Shown here: in pieces, positions 2,414 to 4,493 of the stretch | How positions within the stretch are numbered: the first letter of the stretch is position 1 | How the letters are laid out: the number at the start of each line of letters is the position of its first letter | Virus record (IMG/VR): IMGVR_UViG_3300030116_001426 | Location: 8,043 to 29,717 of that record | DNA length: 21,675 bases | Direction: 5' to 3' (one strand) | Origin: a virus | Position numbers and translations under genes: made by a program | Notes under the pieces: generated by a model | What the model was told of the DNA's origin: nothing | Database searches by the model: none | What the model saw: the letters and a program-made list of their open reading frames with translations, nothing else

Positions 2414-2910
2414 TGACTATACCAAGCAGTGGATCATTAAGTTTAAATGGAATATACAATGAGTTAGATGATAACACATACCCTGGTAGTGCTACTAATT
2501 CTAATGTGTCTTTAACAAATTTATCTACTGGTGGTAATCCTCCTGGTGAAGCAATAAACCAATCTAGTTCTAGTAAACCAGATGGTAACACGCCGCACGC
2601 TATGAGTGAATTTCATGGGTACAGCCATGGAACAGCGCTGCCAGGCTTTACTTTATTTTACTTTGCTGGTAAAGCTACAGACGTAAGCTCTGTTTGTAGT
2701 TCATCGAATACAATTACTGTGTATTCTAGCACAGCAACTAGTGCATCAGATATTTTTTTAAATGAAAGAGTTATTTATCAAGACTCAGCAGGAACAACAT
2801 TAGCGCCCTCATACTGGTATGCAGCTGGAACAAGCACCGGTGACAGGGCTGGAAAATGGTCAAACCTTGGTAGCGGCTCTTGGACAGTAACATCAACTTG
2901 TGGACAATGA
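2413..2910 (+). CDS. Small fibre/appendage protein with Cys-bounded C-terminal module
   Basis: A 165-residue protein, not named by any family I can recall with certainty. The N-terminus (IPSSGSLSLNGIYNEL, residues 3-18) and the later MSEFHGYSHG (64-73) follow a pattern common in small phage virion appendage proteins, where a proline/serine start leads into short beta strands. Residues 95-163 form a compact module bounded by Cys95 and Cys163, rich in Ser, Thr, Tyr and Trp. It resembles a surface-exposed beta domain seen in fibre proteins of Bacteroidota phages. The gene sits directly after the S74 fibre (one-base overlap) and is followed by a methyltransferase through an ATGA overlap, so all three are likely translated together. 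A role as fibre tip or tail appendage is inferred from position and composition. No signal peptide or membrane segment is visible. Confidence 0.65.
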   Translation: MTIPSSGSLSLNGIYNELDDNTYPGSATNSNVSLTNLSTGGNPPGEAINQSSSSKPDGNTPHAMSEFHGYSHGTALPGFTLFYFAGKATDVSSVCSSSNTITVYSSTATSASDIFLNERVIYQDSAGTTLAPSYWYAAGTSTGDRAGKWSNLGSGSWTVTSTCGQ

Positions 2911-3518
2911 ATTATATATTTAACGAAAATAGTATTTACGATTTGGATTGCGATATGTGCGGAGAAAAAGGTACTTTAGTTATGCACGCAGATCATGCAG
3001 ATTATGAAAACGCGGTAGCAGATTTTATTACATTTGAAGGTGCTACTATATTAGAAATAGGTTACGGCATGGGGTTATCAGCAAATCAAATACAAGCAAA
3101 TAATCCGACTAAACATGTTATTATAGAAAAACATGAGCAGGTATATAATAACGCAGTTGCTTGGGCACAAGATAAAGATAACGTAGAGATTATATTAGGA
3201 GACTATAAAGATGTTATAAGCACATTAACAGATAAGTTTGATGGTGTATACCACTCAGCTGATAAAGAAACTAAAGGAGCTTTATTTAATTTTAAAAACG
3301 ATATAAAAAGTTTATGTAACGAAAATTGTAAACTTGTTATGCTTAATTGGGATATGAATCAAGATATATTAAATAAAGCAAATTATAAAGAAATACAAAC
3401 AACACAAGCATATAAAGATGCGTTTGGTGAATTACAAACATTTATAATATACACTACATTAATGAACAACAAATGGGAAAAAGTAAATGAAGATCCCGTT
3501 TATGTAAATTTAAAATAG
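2907..3518 (+). CDS. GAMT/RMT2-like class I SAM-dependent methyltransferase
   Basis: A 203-residue protein. I chose the ATG at 2907 (ATGA overlap with the preceding stop); a longer reading from a TTG at 2880 would overlap the upstream gene by 31 bases and adds nothing recognisable. Motif I is ILEIGYGMG (residues 48-56), followed by an acidic strand end HVIIE74, GDYKDV (98-103) and FDGVYHS (111-117), the order of a Rossmann-fold methyltransferase. The combination VM-8 residues-motif I GxGMG-KHxIIE closely matches guanidinoacetate and protein arginine delta-methyltransferases. The acidic residues that grip the guanidino group in mammalian GAMT appear replaced (VMHADHADY in place of VMERWETPY, and no YDTYP motif), so the substrate probably differs. 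The position behind two fibre genes suggests it modifies a virion or host component; this is inference. Confidence 0.75.
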   Translation: MNYIFNENSIYDLDCDMCGEKGTLVMHADHADYENAVADFITFEGATILEIGYGMGLSANQIQANNPTKHVIIEKHEQVYNNAVAWAQDKDNVEIILGDYKDVISTLTDKFDGVYHSADKETKGALFNFKNDIKSLCNENCKLVMLNWDMNQDILNKANYKEIQTTQAYKDAFGELQTFIIYTTLMNNKWEKVNEDPVYVNLK

Positions 3519-4297: not shown

Positions 4298-4493
4298 TAT
4301 TGGTAAAGATTATAAAAATGACGCGATGCATTACTCTGTAGGCCAAGAAGTCTACGGAGGGCACGTCATTTGTGATATACTAGAATCACCTACTAAATAT
4401 AGTGTTTATATTAAAAAAAATAAAGAGGTATTACCTTGGAAAGATTTTAATAAAAACATGGCTGTATCAGTAGAGTATAATCTAAACTACTAA
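4275..4493 (+). CDS. Small conserved phage protein
   Basis: A 72-residue beta-rich protein of unknown function. I prefer the ATG at 4275 over an internal Met at residue 17. The early stretch (RKISIGKDY) leads smoothly into AMHYSVGQEVYGGHVI, and small marine phage proteins I recall have the same beginning. Near the C-terminus are VLPWKDFNKNM and AVSVEYNLNY. The start lies inside the preceding coiled-coil gene and the stop shares one base with the start of the GroES-like gene (TAATG), so it belongs to the same transcript. Its constant place before packaging genes suggests a late role, but no motif gives a function. Confidence 0.6.
   Translation: MNLIRKISIGKDYKNDAMHYSVGQEVYGGHVICDILESPTKYSVYIKKNKEVLPWKDFNKNMAVSVEYNLNY

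Follow-up and report, generated by a model that had tools for sequence, protein, structure and literature searches.

A GAMT-family methyltransferase encoded behind the tail fibre genes of a marine virus, and its relatives in fibre-adhesin cassettes

What does a methyltransferase do when it is encoded directly behind the tail fibre genes of a marine bacterial virus, and on which substrate would it act? We addressed this question for a 21,675-nucleotide stretch of DNA (hereafter the window), part of a 29.7-kb virus record, in which an earlier note had pointed to a methyltransferase of the guanidinoacetate methyltransferase (GAMT) type. Our preferred reading, to which we assign a probability of roughly 0.45, is that this GAMT-family methyltransferase (MT) is produced along with the fibre tip and, ahead of assembly or in its course, methylates a side chain in one of the virion's fibre or adhesin proteins. 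The family and placement of the gene are well supported; its catalysis, substrate and role we infer.

The MT gene (positions 2907–3518, plus strand) begins with ATG, encodes 203 amino acids and follows two overlapping genes on the same strand. The ORF at 2–2413, whose 5' end lies outside the window, encodes the C-terminal part of a tail fibre with an S74 intramolecular chaperone domain (PF13884 in Pfam, 9.6e-11); positions 209–2413 also match tail fibre families of PHROG (best 8.8e-29). It meets the next ORF (2413–2910) in a TAATG overlap, and the stop codon of that ORF is in turn overlapped by the MT start as ATGA, both junctions being read directly from the sequence. The second ORF encodes a putative fibre-tip or short appendage protein of 165 amino acids. 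Since this product has no significant family match (best PHROG hit 0.016; none in Pfam), its "fibre" label reflects position and composition only. The MT gene is real and under purifying selection: dN/dS between the window and its relative L003 (81% identity) is 0.123, within the 0.06–0.20 of neighbouring genes (terminase left out).

Sequence, profile and predicted structure all point to the same family. In phmmer searches against the PDB, human GAMT was the best match of the window MT (4e-8) and was followed by three more GAMT sequences, with all non-GAMT matches above 0.1. A profile of 50 viral relatives (alignment A7) likewise recovered GAMT as its only PDB match at E<=0.001 (4.7e-26). The AF2 model of the window MT (pLDDT 87) had GAMT as its best Foldseek match (9e-11), and in VIA-align comparisons it superimposed on GAMT structures 3orh, 1xcj and 1khh with Z scores of 19.9, 19.5 and 18.5, the first with an rmsd of 2.6 over 178 residues, versus 16.1 for the best non-GAMT structure. 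The MT therefore shows both specific similarity to GAMT sequences and the GAMT fold, and these comparisons support its assignment to the GAMT sequence family as a predicted class I, SAM-dependent methyltransferase with the GAMT fold, in agreement with the earlier note. Among other class I folds, Agrobacterium PmtA (9ko3), which we take to be a phospholipid N-methyltransferase, reached a Z score of 15.5, well under GAMT and level with many other families. A PHROG match to phrog_15516, "methyltransferase" (3e-4), adds no function. The THW loop is a mark of type I–III protein arginine methyltransferases, and a direct reading of the 203-aa protein found no THW. Yeast Rmt2, a protein arginine delta-N-methyltransferase, is said to have a GAMT-like catalytic domain, and its substrate, protein arginine, is of the type that we propose below for one group of the viral relatives; no Rmt2 was among the listed PDB matches.

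Two scans of IMG/VR returned 374 and 371 relatives, and the 80 best from each were fetched. Among 50,697 phage records the sole good match was LR745206, an uncultured 634-kb phage; a Vibrio phage methyltransferase shared 26.5% identity (9e-4), and a Vibrio tail protein matched weakly (0.2). A plasmid search gave weak actinobacterial matches, and a search of prokaryote genomes gave 11 loci, with L175 alone close to the group that we call A. L175 (a Flavobacteriales MAG, NZWA01000020.1) and L177 (a Saprospiraceae MAG) carry GAMT-like relatives in bacterial assemblies that are perhaps phage or prophage contigs. A tree of the MT proteins, from which truncated L117 was omitted, set group A apart from group B and the window clade together. 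Group A holds 86 of the 114 distinct proteins (85 by rule plus L039, which has a mis-called start and was placed in B by the rule and in A by the tree). The window clade consists of three distinct proteins (L001, L003 and L004), and we found no further members beyond its four contigs. Its branch is long (2.41), and its neighbours in the tree are L099, L104 and L107 (support 91); group B is its nearest relative in sequence.

In the cofactor site, the window MT retains the SAM-binding residues. Motif I, GYGMG (residues 52–56, positions 3060–3074, plus strand), forms the SAM site within the context EIGYGMG (residues 50–56), and the KHVIIE strand and the VM segment occupy residues 69–74 and 25–26, as the earlier note had recognized; the VM segment, a GxGM motif I and an IIE strand are shared with GAMT. 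Glu74, which closes the KHVIIE strand (3126–3128, plus strand), is presumably the acid that binds the SAM ribose. All 50 sequences of alignment A7 have Glu50, Gly52, Gly54 and Glu74.

The substrate side of the pocket, in contrast, differs between the window clade and GAMT. Rat GAMT Glu45 (E45), which we take to be the residue holding the guanidino group, is unambiguously His30 in the window (2994–2996, plus strand), and His is found at this position in L001, L003 and L004 only. Rat GAMT Asp134 (D134) is described as the proton acceptor from the substrate (PMC12471008; PMC12842229). Both acids are present in 110 of the 114 distinct viral proteins, the exceptions being the three window-clade proteins with His and L117, which is truncated before E45. 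In the window clade the sequence around D134 is FDG[VI]YHSADKE, versus FDGIFHDTHR in its nearest relatives. The site corresponds to Ser117-Ala118-Asp119 (3255–3263, plus strand): MAFFT places a two-residue insertion that brings Asp119 to D134, and otherwise Ser117 takes its place, so that D134 appears either replaced by Ser117 or shifted by two residues to Asp119. The earlier suggestion that the guanidino-holding acids are replaced is thus certain for E45 and uncertain for D134. Since E45 is lost, a guanidino substrate is unlikely in the window clade and its substrate is probably of another kind; with its pocket remodelled, the clade forms a divergent branch. A CxxC pair (Cys15 and Cys18; 2949–2960, plus strand) is also kept in the window clade, where it forms a conserved set with Cys137 and Cys141 (3315–3329). 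Cys141 is found in L099 as well, and the four cysteines are a possible metal or structural site.

Is the link to fibre genes conserved? Within the window clade, the ATGA overlap is kept in the window, L003 and L004, and in both L003 and L004 the 165-aa gene remains next to the MT, whereas the long upstream fibre is not the same in the two. Because these members represent one lineage, their fibre linkage counts as a single observation. Group A provides much broader evidence, with its MT genes lying between a fibre-like gene and a gene for a CBM96-like protein. An upstream ORF is available for 84 of the 86 group A representatives and is fibre-like in all 84: 48 end in '..VRVVGY..YFNPDNTWVE', 33 end in '..DIxSFYWD..' and three are other fibre-like proteins (assigned partly by eye, with eight of the first type and one of the second added after a loose regular expression). 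In a PHROG scan of 81 upstream proteins, many tail fibre families were matched with few members each (the commonest by 13 of 81); since these families match only part of the set, "fibre-like" refers for many group A genes to the C-terminal types. The upstream gene and the MT overlap by one base in 46 of 84 representatives, and the gap from the MT to the downstream gene is -1, 0 or +2 in 77 of 85.

Downstream, a full-length homologous CBM96-like protein (~210–262 aa) is encoded in 82 of the 86 representatives. In the other four, the CBM96-like gene is cut by the contig end (L016), no ORF is left (L057), or the MT follows a fibre gene and no CBM96-like gene is present (L005 and L014). The CBM96 Pfam family (PF24517) matches weakly (11 of 82 proteins at E<=0.01, best 2.6e-4), and a PHROG scan of the CBM96-like proteins gave no matches. 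The AF2 model is confident (pLDDT 91), with Foldseek matches to a chondroitin-sulfate-binding CBM (4.1e-7) and an alginate-binding CBM (9.1e-7). By eye, the cassette occurs beside podovirus-type portal and terminase genes and in the 634-kb phage. The conserved fibre linkage, whose absence the earlier note had named as refuting, thus exists in the window clade (three proteins) and throughout the 84 group A loci; group B genes lie in non-fibre regions.

The MT is an optional member of the group A cassette. While a single CBM96-like query found only four close loci, a scan with ten CBM96-like proteins found 51, of which 30 have the MT between the fibre and CBM96-like genes and 21 lack it (MT-). 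Where an upstream ORF is present in MT- loci, the fibre and CBM96-like genes themselves overlap by one base (18 of 20), and a profile search found no MT elsewhere in any of 22 MT- records (both of two positive controls were detected). Cassettes with and without the MT, which differ by one gene, form a natural pair for testing.

We compared 109 distinct CBM96-like proteins from cassettes with (93) and without (16) the MT; 31 of 72 loci were left out of this set as duplicates, as partial or for want of a complete upstream region. Two arginines (54 and 63 of L007) are invariant in all 109, the 16 MT- proteins included. Arg54 was part of one of the two scan patterns, so its invariance among scan loci is partly built in, which is not the case for the 82 downstream proteins found via the MT. 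In the AF2 model Arg54 sits in the turn that joins two long strands. The two arginines are separated by 7–10 residues in 93 of 93 MT+ proteins and by 5–6 in 15 of 16 MT- proteins, the typical hairpin forms being GRGGGT and TGRT. On a tree built without the hairpin columns, however, MT state changes four times and hairpin length three times; of the independent pairs, two are supported (one agrees, one shows no difference) and four appear when all branches are used (sign test p 1). Because independent events are few, the association between the MT and hairpin length is suggestive and not significant. An MT- adhesin with a long GRGGGT hairpin is encoded at L204:2501–3190, in a 27-kb record with no MT, and may reflect a recent MT loss. 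At the fibre C-terminus, no Arg column separates MT+ from MT- loci, a comparison that included five MT- tails, too few to be informative.

Placed together, these patterns suggest how a fibre-linked MT might work. In group A, where the guanidino pocket is kept, the likely target would be an arginine, an assignment made plausible by the two retained acids; for the window clade, with E45 lost, it is less likely. In the CBM96-like adhesin, the invariant Arg at the tip of the Gly-rich hairpin would be the best candidate, or else an Arg of the fibre C-terminus. In the window clade, where E45 has become His, the target has probably shifted to another amine or side chain, and the product of the 165-aa gene would be the first candidate. 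Several observations count against this reading. Since the invariant Arg is found in 16 of 16 MT- adhesins, it has a role even where the MT is missing and is not there only as a substrate. L204 has the long hairpin without an MT, and L005 and L014 have an MT without a CBM96-like gene. Group B lacks fibre neighbours, and the window clade has lost E45; a CBM96-like gene was found neither in the window nor in L003, L004 or the examined part of the L002 contig. We hold a more detailed version to be a speculative one, with a fairly low chance of being right: that ocean phages carry a GAMT-derived, removable protein arginine methyltransferase, inserted between the tail fibre and a CBM-type adhesin, that methylates the hairpin-tip Arg and tunes glycan binding, with the hairpin short where the gene is absent, that in the window clade the enzyme now acts on a different side chain, and that the viral creatine pathway of the ocean is a misreading of enzymes that modify fibres.

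That pathway is the first alternative to weigh. An ocean gene catalogue found GAMT (K00542) to be 85.4-fold enriched in viruses, from nine virus populations, and proposed creatine synthesis as its function (PMC11360552); its K00542 genes probably belong to the family analysed here. As an auxiliary metabolic gene, the viral GAMT would produce creatine, or a different methylated guanidino compound, inside the host during infection, and GAMT is indeed the nearest solved family to the window MT. Group B lends this idea some substance. Its neighbours, judged by eye, include genes resembling those for APS kinase, nucleotidyltransferase, carbamoyltransferase, 2OG-oxygenase, DUF2061, ssDNA-binding protein and RecA, and in 2 of 25 group B records a gene of the ADI/amidinotransferase fold, the enzyme type responsible for guanidinoacetate synthesis, lies within ~9 kb of the MT. 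Group B may for this reason act on a small guanidino compound, which we offer as a lead only. In the records behind L130 and L144, the two genes (L188:1156–2211 and L189:1249–2277) stand beside RmlC-like and sulfotransferase-like genes, possibly as a phage guanidino-compound pathway; flavin halogenase-like (L119:5818–7062) and carbamoyltransferase-like (L105:1345–3006) genes were also seen by eye in group B regions.

The picture elsewhere is different. Among 50 records searched, some of which may be fragments, the amidinotransferase family PF02274 was found in none of 42 group A contigs, in the one window-clade contig not at all, and in two of seven group B contigs; the 63-kb contig behind L002 contains no amidinotransferase, although a host enzyme could supply the substrate. 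Creatine kinase was found in none of the 50 records, a weak result given that the control was silent too. Group A MT genes are locked between virion genes, and loss of E45 speaks against creatine synthesis in the window clade. The earlier note had held that a firm placement in a small-molecule methyltransferase family would tell against its proposal, and GAMT is formally such a family; the fibre cassette nevertheless argues against creatine-enzyme function and for methylation of a virion protein. We consider creatine synthesis an unlikely explanation overall.

Equally unlikely, in our estimate, is that the window-clade protein retains the MT fold without being an enzyme and now serves in fibre assembly or as a structural cap. 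Many phages carry fibre chaperone genes directly behind their fibre genes, which is the position of this MT, and the catalytic acids are altered in the window clade alone, on its long branch. A structural protein, however, would have no need of a SAM site, and motif I, the acid of motif II and the predicted fold are all intact, with a dN/dS of 0.12.

The chances are poorer still that the MT modifies a host component, such as a surface polymer, a receptor or a defence protein, and merely shares a late operon with the fibres. Group B relatives found, by eye, among sugar, sulfotransferase-like and oxygenase-like genes are in keeping with such a role. The fibre and adhesin flanks of group A, with overlaps on both sides and on several genome backbones, are hard to explain without a function in the fibre. 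A DNA, RNA or ribosomal methyltransferase is very improbable, since the profile matches to nucleic acid families (TrmB, RsmA, Erm and MnmC) are weak and far under NCBIfam cut-offs (the window protein reaches 21.4 bits at best where 112.65 are required), and in profile and fold comparisons alike the scores for GAMT are much higher.

Returning to methylation of a virion protein, the closest parallel in the open-licence literature comes from Cellulophaga phages, also infecting flavobacteria, whose virion proteins carry lysine and arginine methylation, including on the tail fibre of phi18:1 (PMC13288928). Those phages are described there as not known to encode methyltransferases, and host enzymes were proposed. 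Searches of the same literature for phage arginine methyltransferases or fibre methylation returned nothing closer, and turned up no report of a phage enzyme methylating adhesins of its own virion. An MT in such a cassette may be one type of source of methylated virion proteins like those reported in flavobacterial phages. Ocean virus genes called GAMT have been read as creatine biosynthesis (PMC11360552); genes of what is probably the same family are found here in a fibre-adhesin cassette, which turns the 85-fold enrichment into a directly testable alternative: the presence of relatives in the fibre gene blocks of many ocean viruses suggests that they decorate attachment fibres rather than make creatine.

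The window terminase matches 87 records, mostly Flavobacterium and Cellulophaga phages; it shares 64% identity with the terminase of a Podoviridae record from Manatee Spring and ~44% with those of Flavobacterium elemo phages. Elsewhere in the window, the product of positions 4493–5098 matches a GroES-like phage PHROG (phrog_13932, 6.8e-19); it is 60% identical to its counterpart in L003 and evolves faster than the neighbouring genes.
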